Shown: one piece after another, positions 1,405 through 64,000 of the stretch
Layout: each line of letters opens with the position of its first letter
Position numbering within the stretch: position 1 is the stretch's first letter
NCBI GenBank assembly: GCA_947561715.1
Contig: OX387200.1
Span: 1,242,501-1,306,500, forward strand
Length of the DNA: 64,000 nucleotides
Direction: 5' to 3'
From: Ascidia mentula
Lineage: Eukaryota > Chordata > Ascidiacea > Phlebobranchia > Ascidiidae
The notes under the pieces: model-generated
Databases searched by the model: none
What the model was told of the DNA's origin: nothing
The model's input: only the letters and a program-made list of their open reading frames with translations
Made by a program: the position numbers and the translations under genes

Positions 1405-1578
1405 CTTGGCAATCTGGACCACCACTTATTATCCGATTATGTGCACAGTTTGCATTTCTACCATTATTGACATCATTACAACAAAATACAAAACCAACAG
1501 TTCCTTCAATAATGGTTGAGTTTGTGCTGTTTGTGCAATATGTTGCACTGGAACCCAAAGGGGCTACTTCACAAACAG
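1405..1578 (-). CDS. Gene A exon 6: degenerate CCP-like domain 4
   Basis: 58 residues with extra cysteines (AVCE, TYCT, FCCN, NANC, GPDC) and no Trp. It is bounded by the same phase-1 splice sites (acceptor tttag, donor gtaaaa) as the other CCP exons. It is probably a diverged CCP; the disulphide pairing cannot be assigned. Confidence 0.65.
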
Positions 1579-4500
1579 CTAAACAAAAATTTGAAAAATA
1601 ACCCTGTAAAACATTTATATAAATACTCAATTGCAATTATACCTGAGCATTCTGTAACATTCCATCGCCCTGGACTAACACATAGTGCAGATGGGCTTCC
1701 AGTGTAGCCAGTATTACAAACAAGATTTACATTTTTATTAACCAGCAAAACACCAGTGGAATTACTACTATATGACATGTCAGTTGGTATGGCTGATTTA
1801 TCACATGAGCCTGAAGCAAAATCATAAAGTCTATCAGGCACAGATACTTGTGCAAGATTAATGGTTAGATAAATTAATCAAGATCAGTGGACTCAAACCT
1901 TATTAAATTCACGGACCCCTTTTGCAAACTTCTAAAAACTTTACCTAAAGTTTTTGTGACAAACATAGTTGTTTAACTTCCCTAAATAAAAAAAAATTAT
2001 GTAACACATGACATAAAAAATTTTTAAAAACGAATTTTTTCAACAATTGCTAAAAAATAATCAAACCAGAAAAAGAACAAAACTTGCAAAAATTGGGACA
2101 CAGCTAGTGTTTTTTATGTACCACTTCCTAAATAAGAAGGGTGCAAAAATGTGTTCCCATCATTAAAAAATGACATATATTTGGAATGTTATGGAAAGCA
2201 TATTTACGTATATGTTGGTCTTTTTTTAACACTGTTAAACCACGCTTTTCTATCCTTTTTGTACAGAAACTTTTAATTGAGATTTGCTTCTGTGATAACT
2301 TAATTCGTTGAGACATCATGATGCATGAAATACAAACTGCTTGCTGCAAAAAGTTAGTGTAGCCCGTTTCACAGTTTCAATTAATGCAAACAATTACCTG
2401 GTTTTGAGACAAAAACCAAGCTGAATGGCGTTGGTTACTCATGACAAATGTTGGTCAGTCGGTGGCTATGGATTACCGCATAGCCAACTTATGACAGCAG
2501 AACATATTTATTAAAATAACTGATTAGGTTGTGCACACATCCTTGATACTATTTGGGGTCCGTGACAGGTTGGAGAAACCACTGATTTTAATTCATACCC
2601 ATGCAGTCGTTGGTAATGTTCCATATGTCAACTCCCACACACACTGCTGCTGCTTTTCCAGAGTAATTTCCAGCACATGTCAAGTTTACAGTCTCCCCAA
2701 AAGCAGTTGAGCCATTTTGGGGCACAGTATAAGAGTCATTTTGTTGTACACTAGTATCAGCGCACTTAACTAAAATATAACAATGTGATATGAAGCAATC
2801 AATACTTGTATCTTGCAAAGCAGATCAAACATATTGCTATTGTTGGTTAATATGCAAAACAGAAGTCTATCATTGCCATTGAACAACTAGTTGACAGTGT
2901 ACTATTTTTATGCAATTTTGTAACACACTATACTTAATACTTCACAATAATTTACTTGTAAGCAACACATCTTTTCTGATTAAATGCCTTTAGACTAAAT
3001 ATGCTGCTCAAAAAATATCTAACACACAAACCAAACACACTCTGGATCGAATTATACTGCAGCTGTGTGAGTGAGCCAGTGAAACAAAACTGAGCTATAA
3101 TACCAATTAAACTTTGCTTCTATACCAAACATGACTTTTGTCCGGGCACAAATATCCTTATATTTTACACCATATTTCCTAAGCAAACAGCTATTTTTAT
3201 GCATGAAACCTTTGCTTGCACTTTTTTACATACCAAGAACAAATTTTGCCATAAAACATACAAATCAACCACATTACGGATTTAAATAAACTAAAAAAAG
3301 TTTGGCAGCTTGGTTGTAATAGAAAGGTTCACATGGGTTTCCTACATAGTTGGGTTGGACCATGCAACCACAACTAAACTGGTGGCGTGGGTAGAAAAAA
3401 TATAAGGGAGGTGTTCGGCTTCGGTACCTAATTAATGAAGCTGTTAGATGCATTTTCATCAGACATTTACCATGCAGGTTCAGCTTTAAAAACAGGTAGC
3501 GAAAAAAAAAAACAACTGTGGAAAAAACAAACCAACTGTGGAGACGAAAACTTTACGGTAGTGTACGTTCCTGCGTAGCGGGAAATTGACCGCACTTTCA
3601 CACCCCTTAAAAAAACAATGTGCAAAAATGCTGAGGGGGTGTTCTGACACCAAAACACCCCCCTGGATCCACCACTGGTAATGGCATTGCCAAACTTTGC
3701 AATTTGAAAGAGCAAAAAGAAACCCAGAAACATGTTAATTTTTGAAAGGTATAGAGAATCCAACCTAGCTTTGTGTTTCTTTTTATAGTTGTACAAAATG
3801 AACACATTATTATCTGTAAAAAAAGATAGCTCTACTACTTCGAAACAAGGAATGCATTTACTTAATTTGCAATCAGGAGGTGGGTTCCAGGTTGCATTAG
3901 CTTGACATGTGGAAGGTTGGTTTCGTACTTCATACCCTGTATTGCATGAAAATGTGTGTGAGCTCATGTAACCTTGCTTGGCTGGCACATCCATAATGAT
4001 ATTAGGAGTTGAGACATTTCCACAATCTGAAAAAAATTTAGGCAAATATTGGCTAAAGATAGAATGGAAAACCTACCACAGAACATACTGATATTTGCGA
4101 CAAGCATCACTAAATTATTAAAAAAACTGTTTGTAACATGTTTTAGTAAATATTAACAACTAGATTCTCTGTAAATTATGAAAAATATTTTGTAACAACC
4201 TGTTTGCTGTCCTGGCACTGCTAAATTATTCATCCAAACACCTTTGTAAGGTGAAATGTAAACTAATACATTAATCACATGATCCAATTTATTGCATTTT
4301 ATCTCTATTTTTTGTGAAGAAAAAACAGTAAATAGCATAATCCAGATAATTGCTTGTTATTTCAAAGATTTATTCCAAATGTTCAGTAGGTATAAGGTTC
4401 ACACAGCGTTATGTTGCTCTTAAAATACACCAAAAGCATAGTCAGTTTTGCAACATTTGTAGCTATGATTAACCAATACAGACTGAAACTTTTTTATAAA

Positions 4501-6301
4501 TTACTGTTAAACAAAAATTTTACACAAACAGGAATTGAATAAACTTGAAATATTTATTCAAAAAATAAAATCTTTTAAATTGTTTTAACTTTAAACTTCG
4601 AATATTTTTTAGGGGAACAAAAATTACATGAATCGATTCGTCATTTACATCTTTTTTATGAATTAGCATTTTTTGGTTGAAAACTGAATGCATATGAGCC
4701 ATATCAAATAGTTAGTGATTTGGTAATATTTCCTTTTCTTCTATGAATACACTTACACTTGGCTGTCAATGTAAAACTTGGGTTGCCGATTGATGGGTTC
4801 AAAGTGATGTCAATTGTGATATCATTTGTTATGGCAGGTGGTGAATATGTTGAAATTATGTTTGGTCCTGATATTGAGCAAGTTATATTATTCATTGTCA
4901 AAGTTGTATTTTCAACACATCCGCTATTATAGTAAGTAGAAACCGCAACCGTGTTTCTTCTCCATGTACAAACAAAAACTGAGGCAGCAGGAACACTGCC
5001 CGTGAACAAAGGGCTAAAGTTGAATGATACATTACCACCATCCTCTAAGCCACCTGATGCAGTGATGGTTTGTGCATCTGAAAAAAAATTTAGTCACCCT
5101 CAATACAGCACACACAGTTTTCAGTTCCCTCATGCACAACAATTGTTCAATACTCGAATTAAACCCTTCCTTCCAAAGACAATTAACTAAGTGTCATTTA
5201 TTAGATTCAAAGAAAACCAGGAGTAGAAAACCAAGTCTGATTTTACATGAAATGAACATGTAATTATGTGATCCTTGCAGATGCACAATAATATCACAAA
5301 GGTCAGGGCATGCTGTGACATCACAAAAAAAAATTTGGTCATTGTAACATCACACACTAAAGTTACAAGCACTGGCATACCTCTGATTTTGGGCAAAAAG
5401 TACACCAACCATAAAATTGGTCTGCATGTTAACAATTAAACTTATTTCAGAGATAGGGTTTAAATTAATAGTAACTAAGCCCCTAACCCCTAAACAGTTT
5501 AGTTATGCTCAGTTTGTATTAAACCATGCTGCATAAGTGTAAAAACTAGAGGGTTTTTATTTCGTTGATGTTATGCCATATGGCATCAAATGCTCTTACA
5601 TGAGAGCCGCTTATAGGTCAGGGAAGGTGTGCAGGAAAACACTCCATCTATCACATCATATGACTATTAAAACATTTGCCATGAACTACCTTTGTGACCT
5701 TTCAGAATAAAACAATAACAAAACATATCACATACCTTAGATCAAAACATTTAACGTTAAATGCGGCAACGAGAGCTTTGCTTCAATCGCATAACGTTTT
5801 TCATATTCCCACTTGTCTTATTCTTCGCTTAGCTTATTCTTCGCTAGCGTGGCGTATATTTCGATATAGGCTATATACGATTATTGAAAGTAAAAAAAAT
5901 AGTGACATGGACAGGATTATTAAAACATCAATTTATTTATTAAACCTAAAGCCAATTTTCAATATGTCAGGCAGAAGCCAAGCGATTAACCCAACGTACC
6001 ATATGCGCATCAGCATGTATGTGACGTAATTACAAATCCGACACAAAGAATAATAAAGTTTGATGCAGGTGCATTTTTTTACAGTTTGCAGCTCAGTGAT
6101 ATCACATTGACGTATTTTTTGGTGTGATGTCATAACTTAACCCCACCTTTATGGTTTCGCAACTGGGGGTTGTTGTTATTTCTGGAACATAGTTGCGTCT
6201 CGGTGCATAGTAATATTTAAACACTTTTTTAACAACTTACTTGATTTATAGAATAAACATGCAAAAACAAGTCCAAACACAAACCATCTTTTTATTTCCA
6301 T
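1405..6301 (-). CDS. Gene A: CCP-domain receptor-like protein, 5' part (six exons)
   Basis: Spliced model on the minus strand with exons 6301-6241, 5077-4757, 4026-3862, 2769-2599, 1810-1643 and 1578-1405. Every junction has AG/GT and every internal exon is phase 1-1, giving about 353 residues without a stop. Residues 1-20 are a signal peptide (MEIKRWFVFGLVFACLFYKS), 21-127 the N-terminal domain shared with gene C, and 128-353 four CCP-like modules of 55-58 residues. The ATG is the first in the exon and is followed at once by the hydrophobic run. No transmembrane segment, tail or stop codon was found, so the gene either continues past the left edge or has missed exons. It is probably a secreted or surface receptor of the same family as genes B, C and D, in opposite orientation. 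The several-CCP layout recalls the variable complement-receptor-like proteins of Ciona, but I cannot confirm that identity. Confidence 0.75.
1643..1810 (-). CDS. Gene A exon 5: CCP/sushi domain 3
   Basis: 56 residues with four cysteines (GSCD, NLVC, SALC, VTEC) and Trp in GRWNVTEC, with the CNTGY motif typical of CCP modules. Phase 1-1, donor gtataa. Confidence 0.82.
2599..2769 (-). CDS. Gene A exon 4: CCP/sushi domain 2
   Basis: 57 residues with four CCP cysteines (KCAD, NLTC, AAVC, TNDC) and the conserved Trp three residues before an N-glycosylation site (IWNITNDC). Phase 1-1, donor gtatga. Confidence 0.8.
3862..4026 (-). CDS. Gene A exon 3: CCP/sushi domain 1
   Basis: This 55-residue module carries the textbook CCP pattern: Cys at the start (YCGN), TFSC, PSTC, then Trp in ATWNPPPDC as the last Cys. 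It is the most canonical CCP of the gene. Phase 1-1, donor gtaaat. Confidence 0.85.
4757..5077 (-). CDS. Gene A exon 2: N-terminal family domain
   Basis: A 321-nt phase 1-1 exon encodes about 107 residues beginning NAQTITASGGL. It has the motif NFSP near the start, later Cys-Trp (VCTW), then NITC, and ends FTLTAK before a gtaagt donor. Gene C exon 2 has the same landmarks (DAQ, NFSP, FCGW, a Cys-rich centre). I do not recognise the fold. The cysteines and beta-like alternation would suit an Ig-like or other beta-sandwich domain. Several N-x-S/T sites suggest glycosylation. Confidence 0.72.
5078..6240. repeat. Gene A intron 1, partly dispersed repeat
   Basis: Stretches such as the GTGATGTCATAACTT segment near 6123 and the GTGACATCAC segments near 5300 recur in similar order near 19390-19600. 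This suggests that a repeat has copies in the intron and in the A-B spacer. No coding exon was recognised. Confidence 0.35.
6241..6301 (-). CDS. Gene A exon 1: signal peptide
   Basis: It encodes a basic start (MEIKRW) followed by a hydrophobic core, and ends in phase 1 before a consensus gtaagt donor. The signal-peptide exons of genes B, C and D have the same design and the same phase. Confidence 0.8.
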
Positions 6302-7750: not shown

Positions 7751-7756
7751 TTTATG

Positions 7757-8825: not shown

Positions 8826-8883
8826 CTAACGCGCGCGTACCTTATTATTCCACATGATGTCGCTCTTATTCGGAATTTGACAC

Positions 8884-21388: not shown

Positions 21389-21482
21389 ATGTGTCGAACT
21401 GGCTTGTATAGCATTTTTGAAACAAATTCATTTAAAACCTTGATTGTGATTTTATATCTTGCAATTGGCTTCACCTCTGCTG
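21389..21482 (+). CDS. Gene B exon 1: signal peptide
   Basis: 31 codons with a hydrophobic stretch (TLIVILYLAIGFTSAG) ending in phase 1 before gtaagt. An earlier ATG at 21384 is out of frame. The N-terminal extension before the hydrophobic core is longer than in genes C and D. Confidence 0.8.
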
Positions 21483-24400
21483 GTAAGTCTCATGGATCCT
21501 GTTTCTGTTGTTTAGTTCATTTATTTAATGCTAGTTTTGTAGTGAATGGTGAAATATATATTGCTAAATTATGAGGAGGTAATTATTAGTGGTTGCTAAA
21601 CACTTAGATAATAGATATCATATAGCCTATGCCAGGGTACAAATTAGTTAAAATGTTTGAACCTAAATTCGCAAAAACGTTTTTTACCCTAAATTTAATT
21701 ACTGGAATAATTTACTGCATGCTAGCGATGCTGCTTAATTTGGATTTTTTGTATATATTCGTTGAATGTTTTCTTGTGTTGTCACAGTACTTCTAATTCG
21801 AACCCCGTATGCTAATCCATATATATTTCTTTATTGGTAACAAGTGTTATTGCATTGTGGATGTGCTTTGTTTTACTAGATATGATGTGCTGATATTTTG
21901 TTGTTCTGTTATTCATCACTGTGCGTTACACCAAACAAGTCGAAGTCAATTTGTGTTGCTACAGTTTATGTTTAAGATCAAAGGCGAAAAAAAAATACTG
22001 ACGTCAGAAGGTCGTTTGCACGCCATAATATACAAATTATAGCGTTGTCATATACAAATATGCTAGCAACGTTTTTGGACGAAAATACGAGTGTGATCAG
22101 AAAAGTAATGCGTCTTCATCTTTGCTGCCGTTGCCGAAAGGACGCAATGCGATTGTGTGGTTAAATTTAGTAAAGGTCGGGGGTGCGCGGCATCCCTGCA
22201 CCCCCGTATTCTACGCCAGTGTTTAAGATCATTAATATCAAAACAAAATGTTTGTGTATCAACTTTCCAGTTTAAAAATCACTTTTTGACAGAAATCGTT
22301 TCCAATGTTACACTTTTTCCTGTACCCAATCAAGCAACCAATGCAGATGTTACACTTTTTTCCACATTTTCTGGTTCCTCCTTTGCCTTCTTATACCTGA
22401 ATAATCAAAACATCAGTAATGTGAGTATGGCACTTTTTCCCAAGTTAAAAAGGTAGTTTTTAAAGTTTGGTTTGTATTTGCAGCTTTTCTAAACACAATA
22501 TCACCAAGCTGGTAGAGTTGCATATTACTTATTTTTACTTTCAATTAATCACATTTTTGGTTTGCTAGAAACACAATTAAGTGGTTGTGTATTTACAACT
22601 ATGGGCATTTTATGCTCTTGTTCAAACAATTAAGCCTCAGAAACTTACCAGTTAAAAGTTACAGTTGTGCCCATCTTTACAATTTGGCAGATAGATGACG
22701 TTTATATTTGTAAAGGTTTTTAATGCTACTCTAGCACAATAATAACAAAAACATTTTATGTTTTTAGGGTGTAGCATCAGTTCAATTTCAGAATAATCTG
22801 CAATGTTCAGTGCTAAACAATTTTCATGGGAATATAAGGTATTGCATTGTAGCAGTAGTGCCTTGCTTCTTTTTAAAAACATTGGTTTTGAGTAAACATT
22901 TTTTTGTATAGATTTGTTTTGCCTATCATACAGCATATGTCAAAATCCTACCATTTTCAGTGCATCTAGCCTGCCCACCTACAGTTTTACTTTATTTATG
23001 GTTTTAAGGTGCAATTTGAAAAGTATGGTTTGTTGTATTTAGAAATGTTAATATTTGATTTTAACTTATTTTTGGAATATTCCCAATAATATGACACATT
23101 CTTAAAATTTATTGTTGCTGTTAATATATACAAACACTTTGGTCTCCCATCAGCTGTTGGCTAATTAATGTCAGATAACAAACAAAAATATATAAAATGG
23201 AAGATTTTGGACATCTAAAACACAGAAATCATAAAATGTTACTCATTTAATGCAGAAATATTTTTTATGTGTTTCAGTTGTACCAACACATCAGGAGTTA
23301 CAAACGTAGTTTTCATCTTTTTTAATGTGCTGTCCAATTATTCCACTGCCACTTGGAGTATTGGAACAAGTTCATTGATTAAGATGGCTGATTTTTCAGT
23401 ACAAGGTAAAAATACAAAAGTCTAATGTTAATAACAATATCGAATTTTACTTTACCTATTTACAACAAGAAACCTGCTTCAGTTGTTATCAATATTTCTT
23501 TAAACTACCTTTGAATGAAAGTCTTTATCCTGGTAACACAATTTTCATTGTAACACAACCATTATTAAATTACATTTAAAACAGTATATATATTATTGGG
23601 AATAGTGTTTTATGCTTTGAAATTATTTGAACAGTGGTTACTGAAATGACTTGCATTTACTTTATGCTGGACCTAAGTGCCACCATTTATCTTTGTAGTT
23701 TTTTTTTAAGGATTTTTAAGAGAAAAATATAAAATTTGTAGAACAACATGGTTAGTCATTTATTTACAAAACTAGCTAAGCAATAAGAACCACCTTAGGC
23801 TGTTTTAGGTACTTAAATTTAACATTATATTAGGCTTAACATTTTTTATATGTTTAGATTGTCTGAATGACACTTTACCTTCCAGACCATTTATCGAAGC
23901 ACTTAAACTTAATTATAAGTCACCAGGTCAGTTCAAATGCCCAGCAGGTCAAGAGTTGTTTTACTGTAACTCAACTCCTGGTATTGTAAATACAACTTGT
24001 CAAAATGATGCAACATGGTTTGGAGCTGATGGATTAGAATGTTGGTCAGGTAAACTTGCTAAATTTAGTTTAGCTAAATACAAAAATAAAGTTTGTGATA
24101 AATACAAATATTTTATGATTATGGTGATGAACTGCAGATGTCCAATGCACTAAATTAGTTATGGCATGGAAATTGTTAGATAATTATATAAATTTTTTTT
24201 TGACAAAAATTCTTGTACTAGTGTTGTTAAAAATACTTCAAAAAAACTATTACTTCAAATGAAGTGTATTGCTAGTGGTAATTATGTTGGTATAATTTCG
24301 TTGCCAATGGTAAGTTTTTGTAAATCAATAGTAGTTGAACATGTCAATGATTGCAAACGATCACAGATTTCATGTAAAATATTGTCTTGGCCATAAATTC

Positions 24401-27400
24401 TGATGTAATACGATGCGCTATATATTTTTACTAGATCCAACACCACAGCTTTCTGGAAACTTTACTGGTGTAGAAAAAACTGTGGTGGTAATAAAGTGTT
24501 GTGTCGCATCACATGTGTTTCCGCCTGTTACAAGCTACTCCATCTATATTGGAAATGTTGTTTATATACAACAGGTTTGTTAGTTAATTACCTGGAAAAA
24601 ACTATTACCATTGCTAATACCATAAATGTGCTATAAAAATTACTCTGTTCTTGGCCAATAAATGACAAAACACAATCAGTAGCTCTGGTAAACTTTCTGT
24701 GTAAAATGTACCCCTAAACAGCATGTGGAAGGTCAACAAAGTCTTTTGATAAATAGTGATTTGCTTGCAGCTAAAAAGGTAAGTATATGTGGTTATGCTA
24801 CTGAATTTATAATATGATACATGGCAGTGACAAATCTTTTAAAATTTAGATCCATGTAAGTTTATATTTGCAGGATTTGCAAGACTTCCGTTTTCTACTG
24901 AAAAGAGAAATGAACAATCAAATGGTTCATTGTCAGGTCACCTCAAACTACACAAAGTTGAAAAATATTTCAGGAAATTCTTCTGACCATCAACTTATAG
25001 TATACTGTAAGTTTTGTTATCTTAATATTGCACAGGTTATTTGTTTTTTAGAATTGTCAATACAAAATCCAGTTCCATTTTTTGTTGCTGTTTTGACCAA
25101 AATATTGAATAACCAGGGAGCAAATGCTGCCACGGGGATGGCTAAACCTCTAAGGTCCACTGTGTAGGCCTTGGGCAGTTCCCACCACCATAGCTTATTT
25201 TCATTGAAATACCAATATACCTCCTTTAGTAAAACAAAATGTTTCCCTTATCCCTCTTTCACAACACATCCTGACCAAGTGACCACATCACAAAACAAAA
25301 AAATGGCATATTTGAAATACCCAAACCTGGCCAAGTGCTTTTGTTTTTAGTGAACTTGAGTTCCATAAATATTTTTGTGATGTGATCAGTCAGTCAGGAA
25401 CTCTTGTGAAAAACGGATATGCCTTTAACAAGTAATGTTTAGTCTGATTTTTCATGTCGGTCAAAGTGGACCGTAAAGTGTGGTTTTATATACTTAAAAG
25501 CTGAATTGAACATAAATTAGTGTCTTTGTTAAAAAATACAAATTTTACGTTTGATGTGTATTGATGTTAATGCCAGTATAAGTTACCAAGTTCTATGTAT
25601 GCGCAAAAAAAGCCATAATGATTGAGAGCTGCAGACAGGGAGTACATGTAGTGTTTCGACCTGTAAGGTCTCATCAGTGCAGATGTTGACTGTGGCATTG
25701 TGCTGACTTTCACACTAGCAGGCACACTAGTCTCCACTTTGTGGTACCTTTCGGTCAACATCCATCTGCAGGGTACCCTATACTAGGTACCGAACAAAAG
25801 AGACGAACCACTGTGGGGCGCACTATGGCCAAATGAAACTGTTTGGTAACCGAAGTGCTAAAAGCTGAAACCCAATTCAATATATCTGCATAAAAGTCAT
25901 AATAATTAGGAGCTGCAGACAGGGTGTACACGCACCGTTTCAACAATAATAATTGAAAACTAGCACAGTGTCACAGTCAACAACTGCACTGATGAGAACC
26001 TCACACGTTGAAACAGTGCATGTATACACCCTGTCTGCAGCTTTCAATTGAAAAGTTCTCTTATGCAAAAATGAAGTTTAAATTCCAAACTTTCAAATTT
26101 CAATTAAATGCATTTTGAGATGAAGGGTTACTAGCACATATTTTACAGAATTTTGTTGATTGTTTTTTGTTTGTTGTATTCAGATCCACCATCAATTCCC
26201 AACATTACTATACAGGGGTTATTTCAACAAACTGAAAACCAATATATTATTCTGCAAAACACCAGTATAAGCTTAAATTGCTCTGTGGATTCAAACCCCC
26301 AATCTCAATGTGTTTGGTCATATGATAACTTGAATGAAAGCAATGAATGCAACATAAGCAGAAAATTTAGTAATTCAACAAATGCAACTTGTCAAGCCAA
26401 TAATGGTATTGGTAATTCTAACAGTACAACCATTTCAATTGTTTCAGTTCCAACATTTAGTAAGTTAATTTAAAGTTTGTTTTTGAATTTAGACATTTCT
26501 TTCTTTTAAACATTGTTATTCAGGGCAACCAAAGATAACAATTAATGGTGAAACAGTTGATGACAATACAACAAAGCTTCTCAATGAAAGCAATGCTGTT
26601 AATTTTAAATGTAATGTTGACTACCAAAGTTATCTTGGTACAATCTTTAAATGGACAAAAGATGGGATTGATGTTGAGATAGATGTTAATAATGATAGCA
26701 TTTTGCCAAAAAATGTTACACCATATGACACTGGTACATATGTATGCAAGTCTTCTGATGTGTTTGGGAGTTTTCAAACAAGGATTAACATTGATGTTCA
26801 GTGTAAGTTTGCAACATAGAAATTTGACATGCGGTGATAATTGAAATACTTTGTTCTTTTCAGATCAGCATGTTTCAATATTTCTTTTAAAAACAGAGTG
26901 TTATTTGACATGTTGTGTAAATAATTTGTTTTAGAAGCTGTTGCACAATGTAGCATTCAGTAGAAAACTTAATTGATTCAAATTTGTTTTGTTTAAGATT
27001 AACTTTACCTTTAAGTTCATCATTCAATTACCTTATTTATTGATTTTGTATGGTATCTGGTGTAGTTTGAACGATTTATTTATGATTAATTTTGTTTGTA
27101 TTATATATCTTGCTACCTGTTATAACCCTGATAATGACTTGGTGTTCAGTGAAGGGGTTTCTATTGGCAGCAGAAATTCTATTCCTAAATTAAGACTAAC
27201 TCCAATCTTAAAACTCCACATTCAAATATAGTGAAGTTATTTTGTAAAGATACTATTTTATTGTGTTTCTCTTTTAGATGCCCTTTATATTTACCACCTT
27301 TCACACACCCCAGTGTAGGAATTACTTGGATTTTGGCTTACTAACATAATGTAATTACCAGTAAGGGAAATGTTTCAACCTTGTGTATCACAATTTTTGT

Positions 27401-36528: not shown

Positions 36529-36589
36529 ATGGATTCAAATTTAGCAATATTTTTGATAGTAATCTGTGCTTTTTTGCATTGTGAAATTG
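36529..36589 (+). CDS. Gene C exon 1: signal peptide
   Basis: 61 nt, phase 1 end before gtaagt, hydrophobic core LAIFLIVICAFL. Same length and phase as gene A exon 1. Confidence 0.82.
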
Positions 36590-39500: not shown

Positions 39501-42500
39501 AATCATGACTTTTAATATTAAACATATTTTTTCCTAATATTTAATTGAAATTCACTTCACAGGGTCCTGATAATATAGCACTGAATTACACCATCAATAT
39601 GCATATAATTTAAATGTAAGGTAGTTAAAATGTAACTCTAAACAATGCTTTTAAAGCAGTACAGGCATAGGTTTGTGGATAACTGTAAAGAAGTCTTTAT
39701 CACATAAATTCCAAGTTTCAACCTAATAAAAGCAACAAATCAAACTTTAGGTAAAGCACCCATCAGACACTAAACTGAATAATATTGCAATTACAATGCC
39801 AGAAAAAAAAGCATAAACAGCCCAGGGGGGTGTTTCAGCAACTAAATTTGATGCCATTGCATAGAGAAGAGTTGGAACTTACACAAAAATGCCAATGAGT
39901 TGGCAGTTATATGAATAATTTTTCTGCAAAATCCAGTTTACATTTTTTATTGCTTTTTTTTACCAAAAAAACTGACTATCCAGGGGGGCAAACGACCCCA
40001 GGGGGTGGCCAAACCATTTTTCGAGGAGCTAAATTTCATCAAAATTTGTAGATATGGGATGGATCTTTCATAAAATCAAGAAAGATCGGCCACTTAAAAG
40101 ATTCATTTTTTCACAGATACAACCTGAATTTTGTGCTCCAATTTCACCACAATTTCAGCATCACCCATCACCAAGTAAATTCTTGACTGAAATGGCCCAA
40201 AACCCCACAAAAACTGCCCCAAACAACCTAAAATTTACCATGACAACAGCACATGCATGTGCACTCATTCGACCATAAAATTGACCCCTATGCATCACAT
40301 CTTTGCTCTGTGACGTACCCTTTCCATTGTGACAAAGGCCCACACAGTGGGCATTTCCAACAACAGAAACTTAATTTTAAAGAAATACCAATATGCGTCC
40401 TTCAGTAGTTTATATTCTGCGTATTTTGTTGCCTGCCCTAAGAGGCTTTTAACTGTCTGTGGTAATTTTCTGCTAATATTTATTAACAATAAAAGGGTTT
40501 ACATGTTATTAATTAGGAAACAAAAAACAACCTAAGTTGTCGTTAGTTGTGCGAAGTGTTGAAATCATCTGTCACAACGATTACACACTTAAAAATCCTT
40601 AAAAAATGAGATTAATGTCTTTATATGTTAATTACATTCAGATCCACCTACAATTTTCAACATCACTGTGCAGGGCTTATTTCAGCAAACTGAAAATCAG
40701 TATATTATTCTGCAAAACACTAGTATAAGATTAAATTGCACTGTGGATTCAAATCCCCGATCCCAATGTGTTTGGTCATATGATAACTTGAATGAACGCA
40801 ACAAATCATGCAGCATAGAGAGAAAATTTAGTGATTCAACAAATGCAACTTGTGAAGCCACTAATGGCATTGGTACATCTGCCAACACAACCATTTCAAT
40901 TGTGTCAGTTCCAACGATAAGTAAGTTATTGATTTTTAACTTCACACTTTCTTTCTTTACTCAATAATTGATATTCAGGACAACCAAAGATAACAGTGAA
41001 TGATCAGGCAGTTGATAGCAATGCAACAAAGCTTCTTAGTCAAAGTGATGCTGCGATTATTAATTGTACTGTCGACTACCAGAGTTATCTTGGTACAACT
41101 TTTAAGTGGACAAAAGATGGGATTGATGTTAAGTTAGATGTATATGGTGATAGCATTTTGTTGAAAAATATTACACCAAATGACACTGGTACATATGTAT
41201 GCAAGTCTTCTGATGTGTTTGGAACTTTTCAAACAAGGATTAACATTGATGTTCAATGTAAGTTGGCGCCATAGAAAGTTTGCATGTGGTGATAATTAGA
41301 AATAGTTTGTCCAATCAGATCTGCATGTTTTAGAGTGTTGTTTGACATGTTGTGTGAAAAAATTGTTTTGGAAGCTATTGCAAAATGTATCATTGATTAC
41401 ATATCTTAATTGATCAAAATTTGTTTTGTTAAGATTGACTTTACCTTGAAGTGTGTCATTCGATTACCTTACTTGTGGTTTTGTATGGTATCTGGTGGCG
41501 AAAAATGTAATAATCATTAATTTCGTTTATTTTAAATATCTTGCTTAACTTATTAATGACTTGGTGTTCAGTGAAGGGATGTCTGTTGGCTGCAGCAATT
41601 CTATTCCAAAATTGCAACCTACTTCTCTATTCCGATCTTAAACTTCCACATTTATTTATAGAATTGTTCTTTTGTAAAACATAATGTCTGTTGTTTCTTT
41701 CTATTTCTCTTTTATATCTCTTTACATTTGCCACCTTTCACACACCCCAGTGTAAAAGAGCTGCAGACAGGGTGTACACACTGATAAGTGTAGGTGTAGC
41801 TGTTGACTGTGTCACTGCACTAGCTTTCACACTAGCAGGCTCATAGATATCCACTTTTACACTAGTAGACACACCCAACAGATTAACATTGACCAAAATG
41901 TACCACAAAGTGCATACACTATACAGGTCGAAACAGTATGTACACCCTGTCTGTAGCTCTCAATGATTATTATTGCTCTTTTTCCAGTGTAAGAATTACT
42001 AGGATTTTAGCTTACTAATATAATGTAATTACAAGTGGGAGAAATGTTTCCACCTCGTGTATCACAGCTTATGTGTACAAAGCCTTTGGGAAGTTTCACA
42101 ACACTCGTAGCATTGCCACTGATTGTCTATTAGGATTTTTCCTCTGTTTGTGATTATTTTAATTAGCAGAAATCAGAAAACATAAAATAACATACCAGGA
42201 TATCACAACCTAATATGTATGACTTTAAAGGTTTTATTTCCAATGCTTACTCCATCATCAAAAAAAGATAGAAATTCTATTTGGTACAAGTTGCTGAAAT
42301 TTTTCCTAATATACAATTTGTATTAATGTGCATCAAAGCCAATGAATGGTTGAGCACTTAGCATGGTGCTGTTGTTTAAAATTCAACATTTTTTCATGTA
42401 CCAATTTATAATTGTTCTGCACTATTTAAACAATAATGGTATATATTTTGTAATTGTTCTAATGTTGGCTTTACAAGTTAATATATTTTCATAGACCAGC

Positions 42501-43583
42501 CATACACTGACAGCAATTTGAACTGCCAACCAAACCAACCATGTGATATTAATGTGTATTCAAATCCTCCACCTTTTGCATCTGTTTTAATATCACCAGG
42601 TTTGTAATGCTTGAATCATGTTAAGATTAAAACTTGTTTTTTTTAAATTATTTGTTTTAGGAGGTGGGAATAAAAATCTTACATGGATGTCAAATAATCA
42701 GCAGGGGTACACATATCAAATTAAAGTATGTTTTATTCCATATGAAATGAAAGTCATCATGACAAAATAATAACCAAACACTTAAAATTTTAGTACACAA
42801 TTGAGAAATCAAATTTCTTGTAAGTTAAATTTTTAGGTTGTGGCTGCTTAATAATAAAAAATTCAATTGGAATCATCATTTGTGTCACCTGAGGAAATCT
42901 GGGCATATAGTTGGTTATTTAATTGTATGATAATTATGAACACATCCTGTATTAAGATTTCCCAGTGTATCAAGATTCCCATTTAAATCCACTTGACTTT
43001 CTGCTATTTTTTTTTTTTATTGCAAACCAGATTTGAAACTAGTTTTTTCATATATTTTCATTGATGCACATTGTGGTCACAGTGGTTGTTGAAATTACTG
43101 TTTGGTTTTGTGCTGTAGGAGCCAGCAGGAACCTACACTTTGGAAGTTACAAATTCTATTGGAACAAGCTCGATTACAATAACACTATCTTCAATCACTA
43201 CCAGCCAATTGGGATTGATTATTGGAATATCTGTAGCAGCTTTTGTTGTTGTGATTCTTGCAATAATACTTGCAGTATTTTGTTTCAAAAGATCAACAGG
43301 TAAGTGAGAAATTGTAACATGTTGTATATTGTTGGGTTATTAAACCCAAAGTTTTGTTTCATATTACTGTTGTTATCTTGCAGGTAACAAAATGAAAGGA
43401 ACACCTGCAAAGGTTTCACGGGAAGTACCTACTTATTTCAACACATGTGAGTATGAAAACACACCTCCCCAACCTAATACACCCACATATGAAAACACAC
43501 CTGAGTATCAGAATGTGGCAACTTATCAAAATACAACTGGAAACCAAAGTGCATCAGCATATGAAACATTTGGTTCCAGTTAA
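36529..43583 (+). CDS. Gene C: CCP + four-Ig transmembrane receptor, complete model
   Basis: Eleven exons: 36529-36589, 37298-37612, 37697-37888, 38508-38653, 39032-39161, 40642-40920, 40979-41257, 42495-42599, 42661-42725, 43119-43299 and 43384-43583. Total 1953 nt, 650 residues plus stop, all phases consistent. Signal peptide 1-20 (MDSNLAIFLIVICAFLHCEI), N-terminal domain 21-125 in a single exon, CCP 126-189, Ig1 190-281, Ig2 282-374, Ig3 375-467, Ig4 468-about 549, transmembrane 555-580, tail to 650. Same architecture as gene B, with near-identical proximal parts and an unrelated-looking N-terminal domain. Presumed type I surface receptor signalling through tail tyrosines. The exon count differs from B only because the N-terminal domain is uninterrupted. 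Confidence 0.87.
37298..37612 (+). CDS. Gene C exon 2: N-terminal family domain
   Basis: 105 residues beginning DAQQIFESHGL, with NFSP, FCGWNV, TGCVPN, VQCSNN and FQCSPANN. Phase 1-1, donor gtaaga. Homologous by landmarks to gene A exon 2; identity to gene B exons 2-4 is barely visible. Unknown fold. Confidence 0.8.
37697..37888 (+). CDS. Gene C exon 3: CCP/sushi-like domain
   Basis: 64 residues with Cys in YCSS, FKCQ, TICQ and LECW, and ATWFGADG. Residues after the second Cys nearly equal those of gene B exon 5. Confidence 0.85.
38508..39161 (+). CDS. Gene C exons 4-5: Ig-like domain 1
   Basis: Exons 38508-38653 (phase 1-0) and 39032-39161 (0-1). Cys in VGCTYN and MIRCQA. VVEVNGKK precedes the intron. 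Same split position as in genes B and D. Confidence 0.78.
39785..40405 (+). repeat. Copy of dispersed repeat R in gene C intron 5
   Basis: Nearly full copy, colinear with 16450-17050: GATGCCATTGCATAGAGAA, CCAGGGGGGCAAACGACCCC, GGATCTTTCATAAAATCAAG, CCATGACAACAGCAC and ATACCAATATGCGTCCTT. Confidence 0.85.
40642..41257 (+). CDS. Gene C exons 6-7: Ig domains 2 and 3
   Basis: Exon 6 (40642-40920) has RLNCTV, CVWSYDN and [11 protein letters not shown]. Exon 7 (40979-41257) has IINCTV, FKWTKDG and [11 protein letters not shown]. Each is a 93-residue phase 1-1 unit, separated by a 58-nt intron that is also short in genes B and D. Confidence 0.9.
41755..41983. mobile_element. hAT-type MITE with 8-bp target duplication in gene C intron 7
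   Basis: The element begins AAAGAGCTGCAGACAGGG and ends with CCCTGTCTGTAGCTCT followed by a short tail GCTCTTTTT. It is flanked by CCAGTGTA at 41747-41754 and 41984-41991. The matching place in gene B intron 9 (27310-27317) has a single CCAGTGTA and no insert, so the boundaries and duplication are well supported. The 8-bp duplication points to hAT. Confidence 0.88.
42495..43299 (+). CDS. Gene C exons 8-10: Ig-like domain 4 and transmembrane helix
   Basis: Exons 42495-42599, 42661-42725 and 43119-43299. NLNCQPNQPC, LTWM and AGTYTLEV again lack the F-strand Cys. The helix, from LGLIIGISVAAF, is one residue longer than in gene B (an extra Val). Confidence 0.87.
43384..43583 (+). CDS. Gene C exon 11: cytoplasmic tail with Y-x-N motifs
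   Basis: 66 residues. Tyrosines at 602 (YFNT), 608 (YENT), 620 (YENT), 626 (YQNV), 632 (YQNT) and 644 (YETF), so five fit pY-x-N. The last 40 residues match gene B, but the tail stops four residues earlier (GSS then TAA). Confidence 0.9.
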
Positions 43584-47400: not shown

Positions 47401-47410
47401 TTTTTTAAAA

Positions 47411-52083: not shown

Positions 52084-55000
52084 ATGATGAAATTAGTAGT
52101 TTTTGTAATTTTGGTGGTATCTTTTTATTCACATTTAGGTAAGTGTTGCGTGCAATGCAGTAAATATTAATACATGCTGTTTAATGCAAGATTTAAGCTG
52201 ATTCCATTGGATCCTGTGTGTGTGTATTGCAATATGACGTCATAGCTAATATTAACCAGAATTGGAGAGATCCTAAATTTCGGGGAAAATTCCTCTATTA
52301 TTCGCTGTTATAGTTCAGCAAATTAGGGATCGAGCTCAAGAAAGTACGATTGTCCGTGTTTACGCTAATGGAAACAGACACAAACATGGACGGTGGTTTG
52401 CGCAATTGCATTACATCATGGAAAACTCAAATGCGAGATTTTGCGGCGATGCATGCGCAGTACGTTTCTATACTTTGGACGAAAAGGCTTGAATAACTGC
52501 GGTGCAAAAATGGATTAATTGTGCGTTAATGTGGTCAAGAAAACACACAAAAACAATACATGATGTAGCCCGATAAGCCTCTGCACATTTGCGCAATGTG
52601 TTTAAACGCGAAAGTAATTTTATTTTTCTTCCGCAGCGCAAAAAATAGTTTACACTGAGAGAAGCGCATGCTATTGCAACTACGAGATCACTTTTGTCCC
52701 AATCTCTTAACGAGCAAATAAAAATGGCGCTTGTTTCGTAACAATGCGACATGTTTGGTAACAATGGCAAATTTAAGCATGACAATCTAATGCACTTGAC
52801 GACAGATTTCGTACAATGCGAGGCAGTTTACCGACATTCCTGGTTTTACAGCTTTAATTTCCACCCGTACCAAGTGCGCCAACGTGTCGTAGCGCAAAAT
52901 TGTAATTGTGACCAAAAGCTAGTGGTTTATTTTTACTGGAAGTTACTTTTACACCCGATCACTCATATAAATATATGTTTTTTCCAAACTTGATCCTCAT
53001 ATAAAGCCTATGTAACATAGAAATCTGTGCAAATATAAACGCTACGATTTCGTGTAGTAATTCAAGTTAAATTTATCAAAAAAAATCAGGTATGTGGCAA
53101 AGTTACAACTGTAATTTGCAACACATAAAATAACCGAAATATACTTATGGGCAACTGTATTCCAAAATTTTATTTAATATTAGGCTAAAGGTTTTTGCTT
53201 TCCTACATGTTCACTCACAATGCATGATTTGGTATTTATGCAATGTATTGAAGTTTGTATCAACTGCCACTAAAAACAACAAGACAGTCTTTAGTCCTTC
53301 ACAGTATTTATAGAAAGCAGTCTTTAGCTGTTGGGAGTCATTACCCAATATTCCAGGAATTTAATATATTGTAGCGGCCTCTCTAACTACGTTTGCGCTC
53401 CTACAGCGAACCGGACAAATTGCCTTTTTTCTTTTACTCTCGTCCCTCGTGGTTTATTCGCCCATTGTGTCATTCCATTAGTTTGTACCTCGAATAAACA
53501 CCTCGCTACATTTGGTGACCCCGAGCGTGCAAAAACGTTTTTTTGCATTATGAATGAAACCGCAAACTCAGAGAACGCTGTAGCCATCAAGCTACCTTTG
53601 TTTTGGACAGCTCAGCCACAAGTTTGGTTTCGGCAAGCCGAGGCGCAGTTCGCTCTGAAAAACATTACAGGCGATCAGACGAAGTACTATTATGTCGTTT
53701 CGGCCTTAGATCAGGACACAGCAAAGCGTCTACTCGACCTGCTGGACAATCCGCCCAATGATGACAAGTACGAGTCAATTAAAGCACGATTGATTGACAC
53801 CTTTGGTCTTACGCGTTCGCAGAGGGCCAGGCAGCTACTGCACATGCCCCCTTTGGGCGATAGAATGCCATCCGCTTTAATGGATGACATGCTGGCTTTG
53901 CTTGGTGATGAAAAGGAATGCTTTGTTTTTCAAGAACTGTTCTTGGAGCGCTTGCCAGAATATGTACGGACACGACTGATAGGAGAGGAGTTTCGTGATT
54001 CGCGACTCTTAGCACGCAAAGCTGATGCGATATGGACAGGAAGTCAGCCGTCTACGGATTTCGCACTTTCCAACGTGCGTCGCAGCAAACCTTCCAAGTC
54101 TTCATCAGGTTTGCCACAGATAATGCCCGATCCGAAGTCGCTTTGTTTTTATCATCGTCGTTTCGGCAAAGATGCGATAAAGTGCCGCCCCCCTTGTGCA
54201 CTGCAGGGAAACGACGAGGCCGGCCATCATTAGTTGCTACGATGGCCGGCGCAGTTAGTAGTCTTTTCTTTGTGTGGGATAGCTCAGCGGGTCGTAATTT
54301 TCTTGTTGACACCGGCGCCGAGATAAGCGTCATACCTCCCACGGGACTAGAGCGCCGCACCAATCCTCCTGGAAAGGCTCTAGTCGCTGCTAATGGTACT
54401 CACATCCGGACGTACGGTTCACGTCTAGTCACCATGAATTTTCCTCCCGGCAAATTTCAATGGAAATTTGTTCTGGCCGAAGTTTCCCGGCCGTTACTCG
54501 GCGCTGATTTCCTGCGGGCAAATTCCCTTCTGGTTGACCTCAAGCACCGACGCCTAATCAACGCCGAAACCTTCTCCAGCAGTAAACTGGGCAAAGCAGC
54601 GCAATCGGCTCCCCACCTTAACGCCATTTCCGCAGGCACATCGGTCTATGCTCGAATGTTGGCTGAATTTCCAGGGATAGCTTCTCCCCATTTCTCGCAG
54701 TCGCTTCCTAAGCATGGAGTTCAGCATTTCATCCCCACCAGCGGACCACCCGTGCACTCTCGCGCTCGACGACTTCCTCCCGAAAAGCTCGCCCGCGCTA
54801 AGAAGGAATTTCACAACATGCTACAACTGGGAATTATTAGACGCTCATCCAGTCCATGGGCTTCGCCCCTGCACATGGTACCAAAGTCGTCCGGTGGGTG
54901 GCGCCCATGCGGCGATTACCGCCGTCTTAACGCTGCTACCCAGCCTGATCGTTACGCTATCCCCCACATCCAAGATTTTTCGGCTCGTTTGGCCGGATGT

Positions 55001-61000: not shown

Positions 61001-64000
61001 ATCAGGTGGTATTACAATCTGTTTAGTCATGCAGAATTATTATTTTATAAACTTTGACTCAATAAATATCTAAAAATAAAGAAAGTGTGTTTATTTAATG
61101 TAAAAAAAACTTCTAAAAGTAAAAATATTCCTATATCATTAGATTGTCCAAATACATATAATGCTAATGGACCAATCATCAAGAGCAACAGTTTTACATA
61201 CCAATCAATAAATCAAATCAAATCATGTTCAATAGGCAAGTTTAAATGTCCAGCAGGACAGGAGTTGTTTTACAGCAACTCAACTCCTGGTATCGGAGAT
61301 ACAACTTGTCAAAATGATGCAAAATGGTTTGGCGCTGATGGATTGGAATGTTGGTCAGGTAATAGTTTTGCAGCTTGAGATTTCTTTACTTTTTTTTAAT
61401 TATGATTCTTTTAAAGCAAAACATATTATAAACCTAGACTGTTGTAATTGGTAGTAAATGTCATTTATGGATGTTTTGTTTTTATATATTTTGCCTATTA
61501 AAATGAAACATTATCACATTTACTGGATTTAAAACCACATACGAATGTGTTAAAAAATATTGCAAGTCGCAAGTAAATTTTACAGGCAAAGTTAAGTGCT
61601 TTACAACAATAATTATTGACAAGTTTGTCATTCAAAATGTTGGATACACTGATAACCTTGTGCGATAAAACATATCAATGTGAAGGAGTAAGTTAAAGGT
61701 GAAATACATTGAAACATATAACTGTGGAAAAAATATGTAAATGCAACATTAAACATGTAAGCCACACATACAGTAGGGTAGAAAACTTTAGCTTACAATG
61801 GAATAAATACTGCATATGAAACCATTCCATCATTGTGAAATGTTGTAAAACAACATATTTTATTCAAAGATCCTAAACCGTCACTTACTGGAAATTTTTA
61901 TGGAGTTTCTGGAACAAATATTTTCTTGACATGTAACATTTCTCATTCCACTTATCCAAGTGTAATTGATTTCACCTTCTATGTTGGCTCAGACATTAAA
62001 ACACAGGTTTGTTAATATATGGAAATAGCACATAAAGAAAAAAACAAATAAAAACTCTTTTTATCAATTAAGGTCAGTTCCTTGTACAAATTACCCCTTC
62101 AACAACATATGAATGAGCTGCAAGTCTACTGTCAAGCAAATTCAATGTACACTGCAGTCAATAACAGTCTTGGAATGTCATCTCATCACAAGTTAAATGT
62201 ACAATGTAAGTTTCCAAGATAATATTGACTCCATTGCTTATAAACATTTTATAACCCAAAAGAAGATAATTCAGTTATTTCCATTGTGATACATTGTTAC
62301 CCTTCTGTGTTATTGAGTATTTACCCCGACCTGAGATCTGCATCAACCACTTCATATGCTTTTTTTATAAAGATCAAAATCAATTAAATTTATTAGTTTA
62401 TAAATGTACGTATTTAGTATAAATGTGTTCAAATTATTTAGTTTATACCAATTTTTTATTAAAATGTAAATGTATAGATAATATCAATAACTCACAAAAA
62501 GTGATGGACTATCAGCAGCAGTGCGATCTTATTTAAATTTAAAAGAAATATTAATTTCACCTTGACGACATCGTCAGTTTCTGTGCTAAAAAAAGAATAA
62601 AAATAAAAATAAACAAAAACAAAATTAATGTTAAATCAATGAAATGTTTTCATCAGGAAGCAACCCTCAACAAAGACCCTCAATTGCTGCCAAACAGCAA
62701 AACCGCGATTACCACCTAATAAACCAATCAAAGAATGCGCAGAAGAAGAGAAGTCCACTGTTTGGCGGCATTTGAGGGTCTTTATTGAGGATAGCTCCCA
62801 GTTTATACTGCAGGTTTTTTTGTTTGTTGATTCTGATATGATTGTTGCATTCAGATCCACCTTCAATTTCCAACATCACTGCACAGGGGTTATTTCAGCA
62901 AATTGAAAACCAATATATTATTTTGCAAAATACCAGTGTAAGCTTAAATTGCATTGCAAATTCGAATCCCAAATCCACATGTGTTTGGTCTTATAATAAC
63001 TTGAATGAAAGCAACCATTCATGCAGCTTAGATAGAAAATTTATTGATTCTACAAATGCAACTTGTGAAGCCACTAATGGCATTGGTAGTTCTGCCAACA
63101 AAACTGTTACAATTGTGTCAGTTCCAACATTGAGTAAGTTATTTTTCAAGCTTTTTTTTTTGATTTGGTCTTTTTTTTTCTTTAAAATATTCTTATTCAG
63201 GACAACCGAAGATAACAGTTAATGGTGAAACAGTTAATAACAATGCAACAAAGCTTCTCAATGAAAGCAATGCTGTTAAATTTAAATGTACTGTTGACTA
63301 CCAAAGTTATCTTGGTACGATCTTTAAATGGACAAAAGATGGGATTGATGTTGAGATAGATGTTAATAACGATCGCATTTTGTCAAAAAATGTTACACCA
63401 AATGACACTGGTACATATGTATGCAAGTCTTCTGATGAGTTTGGAAGTTTCCAAACAATGATTAACATTGATGTTCAATGTAAGTTGGCACCAACGATAG
63501 TTTGCATGTGGTGATAATTTGAAATGCTTGACCTTTTTAGATCTGCATGTTTCATTATTTCTCTTAAAAGCAGAGTGTTGTTTGACATGTTGTGTAAATA
63601 ATTTGTTTTAGAAGCTGTTGCACAATGTAGCATTCAGTGGAAATCTTAATTGATCCAAATTTGTTTTGTTCAAGATTAACTTTACCTTTAAGTGTGTCAT
63701 TTGACTACCTTATTTTTGGAATTTGTATGGTATCTTGGTGGAGCTTGAACGATTTAATTATCATTTATTTTGTTTCTTGTTTAACCTGTTATAACTTGGT
63801 TGTCAGTGAAAGGGTTTCTTTTGGCTGCAGCAGTTTTATTCCAAAATTGCCACTTACTCATGAATTCCAATCGTAAAACACCACATTTAAGTATAGAACA
63901 GTTGTTTTGTAAAATCACTGCAAGCTGTTTCTTTTTGATTCCCTTTTTGCAGAATTTTTTCCGATATACTATTTGTATAAATGTGCATCAAAGCCAATGA
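52084..64000 (+). CDS. Gene D: third CCP/Ig receptor copy, incomplete (runs off the right edge)
   Basis: Exons seen: 52084-52138 (signal peptide [18 protein letters not shown], phase 1), 61143-61358 (CCP), 61870-62006 and 62073-62205 (Ig1), 62855-63133 (Ig2) and 63201-63479 (Ig3). All phases match genes B and C. Ig4, transmembrane and tail exons should lie to the right of the window. Intron 1 spans 9 kb and contains a Gypsy and a Copia element; no N-terminal-domain exon was found in it. Exon 1 can splice to the CCP exon in frame, so a shortened protein is possible, or the domain was lost with the insertions. Assigning exon 1 to this gene is inference from its design and phase. Confidence 0.7.
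52139..53369. other. Gene D intron 1, part before the Gypsy element
   Basis: No exon recognised. An 80-codon open frame at 52751-52993 does not resemble the N-terminal domain of genes A, B or C. A TGACGTCA palindrome lies near 52235. Confidence 0.35.
53370..53510 (+). repeat. Gypsy 5' LTR (141 bp)
   Basis: TG...CA ends. Contains CGAATAAACACC near the 3' end, which can serve as a poly(A) signal. Unusually short. Confidence 0.93.
53513..53529 (+). promoter_or_regulatory. Gypsy primer-binding site
   Basis: TGGTGACCCCGAGCGTG two bases after the LTR. TGGTGACCCC is a common start of tRNA-primed binding sites in Gypsy elements. Confidence 0.75.
53550..54233 (+). CDS. Gypsy gag
   Basis: 227 codons from ATG 53550 ([11 protein letters not shown]). 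The first part has the usual [12 protein letters not shown] capsid motif. Near the end [18 protein letters not shown] is the zinc-binding signature seen in this Gypsy branch. Overlaps the pol frame by about 200 nt, so pol is probably reached by -1 frameshifting. The open frame extends upstream into the LTR, but the ATG after the primer site is the sensible start. Confidence 0.85.
54032..57430 (+). pseudogene. Gypsy pol (protease, RT, RNase H, integrase) with one internal stop
   Basis: Single frame broken by TGA at 55916-55918. Before it: protease ([12 protein letters not shown], about 54302), reverse transcriptase with [10 protein letters not shown] (about 55195) and RNase H ([32 protein letters not shown]). 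After it: integrase with an HH-CC finger ([15 protein letters not shown]) and DDE residues in [16 protein letters not shown] and NGLAERF, then a Pro-rich C-terminus. The stop falls at the end of RNase H. No chromodomain was seen. All catalytic motifs look intact, so the break is recent. Confidence 0.9.
57446..57454 (+). promoter_or_regulatory. Gypsy polypurine tract
   Basis: GGAGGGGGG ending three bases before the 3' LTR; it primes plus-strand synthesis in this element class. Confidence 0.75.
57458..57598 (+). repeat. Gypsy 3' LTR (141 bp)
   Basis: Same sequence as the 5' LTR by eye, implying recent insertion. Confidence 0.93.
57857..60950 (-). pseudogene. Copia-type retrotransposon remnant (integrase, RT, RNase H)
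   Basis: Minus strand, head near 60950. 60950-59235: end of the protease region ([14 protein letters not shown]), HCC2 finger ([21 protein letters not shown]) and integrase DDE in [15 protein letters not shown] and SNGLCERHN. 59299-58679: reverse transcriptase ([47 protein letters not shown]), where the YVDD box reads YVDG. 58492-57857: RNase H ([34 protein letters not shown]). The parts are in different frames with stops between. Gag, protease core and LTRs were not found. Confidence 0.87.
61143..61358 (+). CDS. Gene D CCP-like exon
   Basis: 72 residues, phase 1-1. The first half ([11 protein letters not shown]...) is longer than in genes B and C and has an extra Cys (IKSCS). The second half, from [10 protein letters not shown], matches them, with one ATW to AKW change. 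Confidence 0.82.
61870..62205 (+). CDS. Gene D Ig-like domain 1 (two exons)
   Basis: 61870-62006 (phase 1-0; [15 protein letters not shown]) and 62073-62205 (0-1; LQVYCQANS). The split is the same as in genes B and C, but the residues are strongly different. Confidence 0.78.
62665..62791. mobile_element. MITE in gene D intron before Ig2
   Basis: Inverted ends of about 33 bp (CCTCAACAAAGACCCTCAAT at 62665, mirrored by ATTTGAGGGTCTTTATTGAGG ending near 62790; both continue into GCTGCCAAACAG and CTGTTTGGCGGC). About 127 bp, noncoding. Confidence 0.82.
62855..63479 (+). CDS. Gene D Ig domains 2 and 3
   Basis: 62855-63133 ([24 protein letters not shown]) and 63201-63479 ([24 protein letters not shown]). 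The second domain is closer to gene B than to gene C (shares GETV, ESNAV and EIDVNN). Confidence 0.88.

Follow-up and report, generated by a model that had tools for sequence, protein, structure and literature searches.

The receptors whose described layout comes closest to the genes reported here are the FcoR proteins of the ascidian Botryllus, which are composed of a signal sequence, a V-type immunoglobulin (Ig) domain, a sushi (CCP) domain, two C2-type Ig domains, a transmembrane (TM) segment and a tail with an immunoreceptor tyrosine-based inhibitory motif (ITIM), a hemi-immunoreceptor tyrosine-based activation motif (hemITAM) or a YxxI/L/V motif (PMC12065747). FcoR proteins measure 520-610 amino acids (aa) and are encoded at 53 loci, where they are paired with fester genes, one haplotype carrying FcoR only (PMC12065747). 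Fester and uncle fester of Botryllus have nearly identical 3' exons and unrelated 5' exons, and vCRL1 of Ciona intestinalis is a variable sushi-domain protein thought to be active in the blood system. Here we describe an array of CCP/Ig receptor genes on chromosome 4 of Ascidia mentula (contig OX387200.1, hereafter C67), starting from a stretch of 64,000 nucleotides, the window, which corresponds to C67:1242501-1306500 and carries four of these genes, A to D. A. mentula is a solitary ascidian, and its genome report gives an assembly of 197.0 Mb, cleared of haplotypic duplicates and scaffolded by Hi-C, with a mitochondrial genome of 19.46 kb and a chromosome 4 of 22.72 Mb (PMC11109543); RNA-seq data (ERR10378036) and an alternate haplotype (GCA_947561685.1) exist as well. 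The mitochondrial COX1 (19,461-bp contig C79) contains 16 AGA/AGG codons, and the conserved protein sequence is recovered when these are translated as Gly, the ascidian usage. Coordinates above 64,000 are positions on C67, and smaller ones are positions in the window. The ascidian comparisons draw on PMC12065747, PMC3549757, PMC9265791, PMC5465252 and PMC11109543, and no report of such an array in Ascidia appeared among the literature titles and abstract openings listed, a scope that leaves aside subscription papers and preprints.

The window covers one section of an extended tandem array of CCP/Ig receptor genes. The original prediction for this DNA had placed four related genes there, three in tandem and one inverted, and had compared them with tunicate receptors; the four genes hold, with B, C and D on the forward strand and A on the reverse strand of an ascidian chromosome. 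The tail exon of gene C has 29 DNA matches at C67:930311-1545170, all in a single orientation, and the corresponding protein search returned 30 matches, the thirtieth being partial and located on another contig (C71). Around the 29 tails on C67, an Ig3 exon lies within 4 kb upstream in 28, a CCP exon within 12 kb in 26, and both in 25. All 38 DNA matches of the C Ig3 exon are on the forward strand at C67 0.93-1.60 Mb, and the 61 CCP matches are found mostly at C67 0.72-2.16 Mb, with a few on other contigs. The N-terminal domain of C (type 1, see below) gave 22 matches, six of them at least 68% identical to C, and 13 matches represent genes on the minus strand, mostly gathered in two blocks, plus three singles. 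These copy counts are lower bounds, in each of which C's own exon is included. No tail exon was found past C67:1545170, and the end of the array (C67:1589000-1601000) is densely occupied by Ig3-like exons that have diverged to 43-76% identity and in some cases contain stops.

Complete spliced models could be built from the sequence for genes B and C, both of which are predicted to encode type I membrane proteins. Gene C comprises 11 exons (36.5-43.6 kb, forward strand) for 650 residues, and gene B 13 exons (21.4-29.0 kb, forward strand) for 666 residues; all splice junctions follow GT-AG, and the joined frames contain no stop. The order is the same in both: signal peptide, N-terminal domain (N-domain), CCP, Ig1 (two exons), Ig2 (one), Ig3 (one), Ig4, TM and tail, where Ig4 is made of two small exons and the beginning of the TM exon. 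Borders between domains are in phase 1, and the splits within Ig1 and before the TM exon are in phase 0. The shared design proposed at the outset stands in its domain order and in the clean splicing of B and C, and needs correction for Ig2 and Ig3, which are single exons; only Ig1 and Ig4 are split. In gene C, the signal-peptide exon (36529..36589, phase 1) is followed by the N-domain (37298..37612), CCP (37697..37888), Ig1 (38508..39161; exons 38508-38653 and 39032-39161), Ig2 (40642..40920), Ig3 (40979..41257), Ig4 with the TM segment (42495..43299; 42495-42599, 42661-42725 and the start of 43119-43299) and a tail with five YxN motifs and the stop TAA (43384..43583). In gene B, the signal-peptide exon (21389..21482) ends in phase 1, and the N-domain spans three exons split in phases 0 and 2; the first part (22293..22420) has weak relatives in the genes g828, g940 and g982, the middle part (22768..22838), for which no relative was found, was placed by its splice sites and frame, and the last part (23278..23405) by the spliced model and sequence comparison. 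This domain (type 2) is unlike the single-exon type 1 of A and C. The remaining B exons, all supported by the spliced model, are CCP (23858..24049, also from CCP alignment and profile), Ig1 (24435..25006; 24435-24574 and 24874-25006, phase 0 between them), Ig2 (26184..26459), Ig3 (26524..26802), Ig4 with the TM segment in its last exon (27801..28678; 27801-27905, 27970-28034 and the start of 28501-28678) and a tail with YxN motifs and the stop (28741..28952). The Ig2-Ig3 region of C matches those of B and D with a tblastn E of ~1e-77, a paralogy far beyond chance, and the CCP, Ig4, TM and tail of C match their counterparts in B.

The proteins of B, C and D belong to the Ig superfamily, as Ig3 exceeds the curated Pfam cut-off in B (PF00047, 30.2 bits; cut-off 21.8) and in D. 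The profile search with joined proteins suggested earlier took the C protein over the cut-offs for Ig_3, I-set and ig, and left Ig1 and Ig4 without a Pfam match of their own; Ig2 scanned alone stays below the Pfam cut-offs. We called Ig1 and Ig4 Ig domains from their sequence pattern and from a Protein Data Bank (PDB) alignment of C to MAG (residues 243-497). MAG, MDGA1, neurofascin, NCAM2 and CD22 are among the proteins that C matches best in the PDB, a weak and general Ig similarity. Six aligned CCPs retain four Cys and the Trp, and their profile matches complement receptors 1 and 2 (whole-chain E to 1e-17). Scanned singly against Pfam Sushi (cut-off 20.7), the CCP of C reaches 22.1 bits and those of B and D fall below; within the whole-protein scan, the same CCP of C scores 15.4 bits, under the cut-off. 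Signal peptides were called from hydrophobicity and splice phase, and TM segments from the hydrophobic pattern. None of the 12 type-1 N-domains scanned matched a Pfam family, and no PDB match of this domain was better than E 0.55; a DOMON hit for the A N-domain (E 0.12) was dropped, as DOMON was seen in none of the 12. A protein database search with C retrieved none of 7998 candidates at E <= 10, which is no evidence of novelty because the collection is apparently poor in animal proteins.

The two halves of these genes have different histories. The distal half (N-domain, 5' part of the CCP and Ig1) is deeply diverged between gene types, whereas the region from Ig2 to the tail is nearly alike in the copies compared. 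In B-type genes, of which five to seven were compared for each domain, the mean number of synonymous substitutions per site (dS) is 0.68 for the CCP and 1.14-1.48 for Ig1, against 0.10 for Ig3, 0.09 for TM and 0.07 for the tail. When C is compared with B, g924 and g940, alignable DNA starts in each case at the identical position, 6 bp ahead of Ig2, and extends, interrupted by gaps, to past the tail; on the 5' side of Ig2, the main match is the final 106-132 bp of the CCP exon, with part of Ig1 added in g940. Between B-type copies the alignable DNA starts ~34-200 bp before Ig2. Within the CCP exon, the mean difference over 13 genes is 44% in the first part and 16% in the last 117 nucleotides. 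Pairwise distances in 12 genes (D being left out, as its tail model is wanting) agree between the distal segments CCP5 and Ig1b (r 0.91, Mantel p 0.0002) and between Ig3 and the tail (r 0.47, p 0.0004), whereas neither CCP5 (r 0.02, p 0.45) nor Ig1b (r -0.02, p 0.53) follows the tail. The six C-type copies differ by 3.5% on average in Ig1b, and yet their tails differ by 7.1%, about as much as tails of different types (7.5%). Such near-identical distal modules with unlike tails point to either recent duplication accompanied by exchange of the 3' half or gene conversion of that half. Extra, partly broken Ig2-Ig3 exons occur inside g940 (C67:940000-950000) and c995 (C67:995000-1003000), and the Ig2-Ig3 pair itself seems to grow and shrink in number.

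We consider it probable that the array encodes germline-encoded type I recognition receptors of FcoR-like build, in which a diverged distal module is joined to a nearly shared signalling module. The ratio of nonsynonymous to synonymous rates (dN/dS) is 0.27-0.62 in CCP, Ig2 and Ig3 across the sets compared, and among B-type copies CCP, Ig1, Ig2 and Ig3 are under constraint (0.37-0.62). From the dS and dN/dS sets we left out the frameshifted Ig2 of c1314 and c1342, the truncated first Ig2 of c995 and exons that the script did not model, and we used the last copy where a gene has two copies of one exon, a rule followed in the N-domain comparison below too. All 29 tails are open; given ~176 substitutions, 6.6 nonsense changes would be expected and none was seen (P ~0.001), an expectation that assumes a rate ratio and transition bias, and frameshifted copies could have escaped the search. 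Three of the six C-type copies (C, c1080 and c1205) are clean, all 11 exons being so in c1080 and c1205. The type-1 N-domain has a higher dN/dS, 1.03 against 0.31 for CCP+Ig3 in the three C-type copies that are intact (P 0.0035 by bootstrap) and 0.86 against 0.46 in all six (P 0.035), P values that are optimistic because the copies are few and related.

That optimism is the first of several points that weigh against this reading. The dN/dS of Ig1 in C-type copies is 1.4-3.3, a figure drawn from very few changes, and the tail (0.78-0.99; TM 0.46-0.99) shows hardly any constraint on its residues, with Cys in place of the fifth Tyr in seven of the 29 copies; the Ig4 pieces give 0.67-1.12. An AlphaFold model of the N-domain, built with two window sequences, reached a pLDDT of 34.6, at which no N-domain fold is assignable. 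Several copies are damaged: c1314 and c1342 have a common frameshift in Ig2, to which c1314 adds a defect in Ig4a; in c995 one Ig2 is partly deleted and an additional Ig2-Ig3 pair is present; a stop lies inside the Ig3 exon at C67:1471990; and, by automatic modelling alone, the script found no clean Ig2 in g957, g982 and g1011, nor Ig4a in g1011, so that some B-type genes may be broken as well. In addition, the decoupling of the two halves is incomplete, as distal and Ig3 distances in the 12 genes correlate weakly and significantly (r 0.38 and 0.31, p ~0.01), and the shared 3' half could stem from recent duplication alone.

Each of the 29 tails carries two to five YxN motifs, and 28 contain a YxxV core. 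YxN is a binding site for Grb2-type SH2 domains. The smaller relatives g820 and g828 (C67:819600-831000), which lie outside the main array, show CCP-Ig1-Ig4-TM in the parts seen and have SEYENV close to the end of the tail, a tail type found only twice in the genome; we take SEYENV to fit the ITIM consensus, by which the main tails have no ITIM. If the array works as layout and evolution lead us to infer, the distal module would bind varied ligands (microbial, allogeneic or gametic), binding would lead to phosphorylation of the tail tyrosines, and many specificities would feed a single signalling output. Tandem duplication, combined with exchange at Ig2 or upstream of it, would then renew the shared half and leave the distal specificities unmixed. 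The label of diversified recognition receptors originally suggested for these genes can be kept as far as the diversified array is concerned, and recognition is the role to which their layout and evolution point. LAT and SLP-76 homologues are reported not to be found in ascidians (PMC12065747), and it is attractive to speculate that a YxN-rich tail could bypass them. More tentatively still, and with considerable doubt, we propose that the fester/FcoR plan predates coloniality, that unequal exchange bounded at Ig2 keeps a common signalling half while the distal ends diverge, as a germline analogue of variable and constant regions, and that the YxN-rich tail could recruit Grb2-type adaptors directly.

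Genes D and A could be modelled in part. Gene D lies on the forward strand and crosses the right edge of the window; it starts at ~52.1 or 61.1 kb, depending on whether the candidate signal-peptide exon at 52084..52138 (donor GTAAGT) belongs to it. Its CCP (61143..61358), Ig1 (61870..62205; 61870-62006 and 62073-62205), Ig2 (62855..63133) and Ig3 (63201..63479) lie in the window, and both Ig4 pieces and a complete open tail were found past the edge; the TM exon was not found there with the single motif tried, and no N-domain was found for D. Two retrotransposon stretches separate the D signal-peptide candidate from the D CCP. One is a Gypsy-type element (53328-57598, forward strand) with Pfam-recognised open reading frames for a gag-like DUF7041, reverse transcriptase/RNase H and integrase, which inserted recently, as the 141-bp segments 53370-53510 and 57458-57598 are 100% identical. 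The other, beside it, consists of Copia-type frames (58679-60977, reverse strand; RVT_2 and integrase), and the neighbouring frame 57857-58522 has no family match. A probable transposase remnant (49638-51385, reverse strand) comprises a BED zinc finger and a frame whose hAT match falls below threshold. Scans of the window at the Rfam gathering cut-offs and for tRNAs returned no match.

Gene A lies on the reverse strand, inverted relative to B, C and D, from 6301 down past 1409. Its candidate signal-peptide exon (MEIKRWFVFGLVFACLFYKS; 6241..6301, donor GTAAGT, phase 1) is the sole candidate that passed the filter in 5.1-10.5 kb. The single-exon type-1 N-domain (4755..5078) is 36% identical to that of C, and is followed by CCP1 (3869..4027; Sushi 24.8 bits, cut-off 20.7), CCP2 (2603..2764; four Cys and the Trp, below the Sushi cut-off alone), CCP3 (1647..1805; in the aligned CCP set, Sushi 17.9 bits, below the cut-off) and a CCP4-like exon without a Pfam match alone (1409..1573). 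Beyond the left end of the window the gene goes on with Ser/Thr-rich exons, and no Ig match was found among the gene A frames scanned. A TM exon proposed from a hydrophobic stretch was rejected, as its frame is broken in several relatives. Tandem arrays of a 182-bp unit lie at 6560-7215 (3.6 copies) and 10566-13177 (14.4 copies) in opposite orientation, with arms up to 96% complementary.

Other explanations have to be weighed against the reading of the array as recognition receptors of FcoR-like build. The array might be truly homologous to the FF/FcoR allorecognition effector locus of Botryllus, in which case the system would be older than coloniality and, in a solitary animal, would be used for a different kind of recognition; we take this possibility seriously without expecting it to be right. 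The FcoR layout, the g820/g828 genes with their SEYENV tails, the YxxV core of the main tails and the sharing of 3' exons alone between fester and uncle fester, the same pattern as in the array, all speak for homology. We nevertheless did not assign the array to FcoR, because size, fester pairing and HECT neighbours disagree and FcoR was compared by description, not by Botryllus sequence. For instance, no fester-type three-TM partner was seen (the A-type C-terminus being only partly traced), and the minus-strand genes with type-1 N-domains do not stand one beside each receptor. Similarly, no HECT ligase match was listed at C67 0.7-2.2 Mb, the nearest listed being at C67:2.52 Mb, so that HECT synteny with fuhc was rejected. 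In addition, distantly related species are reported that encode no fuhc effector genes (PMC12065747).

It is unlikely that some of the copies are artefacts of assembly, owed to a second haplotype that was retained among the primary contigs. Window positions 424-8050, which hold gene A, are 99.24% identical to C67:1561695-1569300, 319 kb apart, as expected of a segmental duplication or a leftover haplotype, and C67 891.8-898.0 kb has a 99.4% identical copy at 1.40 Mb; the array counts may therefore be inflated by residual haplotype copies. On the other hand, the latter match breaks at its right end (its left end, like the far end of the former match, being the edge of the DNA compared), tails differ by 7% on average (12 compared), and the assembly had been purged and Hi-C scaffolded as noted above. 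That the genes are a vCRL-type family of haemocyte or follicle-cell receptors, perhaps with a developmental role in blood, is improbable: what is described of vCRL1, which was likewise compared by description and not by sequence, fits the multi-CCP gene A better than B-D, which are mainly Ig proteins with one CCP. A recently amplified Siglec/NCAM-type adhesion family with little recognition diversity, whose distal divergence is decay, is improbable too: the broken copies, the tail dN/dS near 1 and the PDB matches of C agree with it, but those matches are weak and general, CCP and Ig1-Ig3 are constrained among B-type copies and every tail is open.

Receptors of this layout have been described from colonial Botryllus (PMC12065747), and a large solitary relative or look-alike would uncouple the receptor plan from colony fusion. 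A solitary host with a chromosome-level assembly would make the original task of the plan testable (microbes, self-sterility or blood), and the array would offer a clear case of germline diversification of one receptor half with the other half held nearly constant. The statement made earlier for these genes that no named family has exactly this layout needs tempering, as the Botryllus fester/FcoR receptors are named and very similar in layout, and the earlier pointer to Ciona vCRL as kin gives way to FcoR, which ranks ahead of it on layout. FcoR and the array share a type I TM protein with signal peptide, N-terminal domain, one sushi domain, Ig domains, a single TM segment and a tyrosine tail in the same order, encoded by a large clustered family, and the array receptors, built like FcoR by described layout, probably work like FcoR. 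The likeness extends to the YxxV core and to g820/g828, whose visible parts show the same order with two Ig domains, together with ITIM-like tails. The differences are that B, C and D carry an additional Ig2-Ig3 pair, giving B and C four Ig domains in 666 and 650 aa against two in FcoR, and that the array has YxN-rich tails, a one-strand tandem arrangement and a solitary host. Fester and uncle fester resemble the array genes in having an N-terminal domain followed by a sushi exon, and in 3' halves that are near-identical between loci with unrelated 5' exons, but fester has three TM segments and no Ig after the sushi domain, whereas B and C have one TM segment after four Ig domains. By its description, vCRL1 shares with the array the character of a variable sushi-domain ascidian protein, and is set apart by the predominance of Ig domains in the array proteins. 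KIR/LILR and Siglec receptors of mammals and Alr of Hydractinia are likewise clustered Ig superfamily recognition receptors with tyrosine-motif tails, which resemble the array in this general plan, and, in the case of MAG and CD22, through the weak Ig similarity to C, but differ from it in having no CCP.

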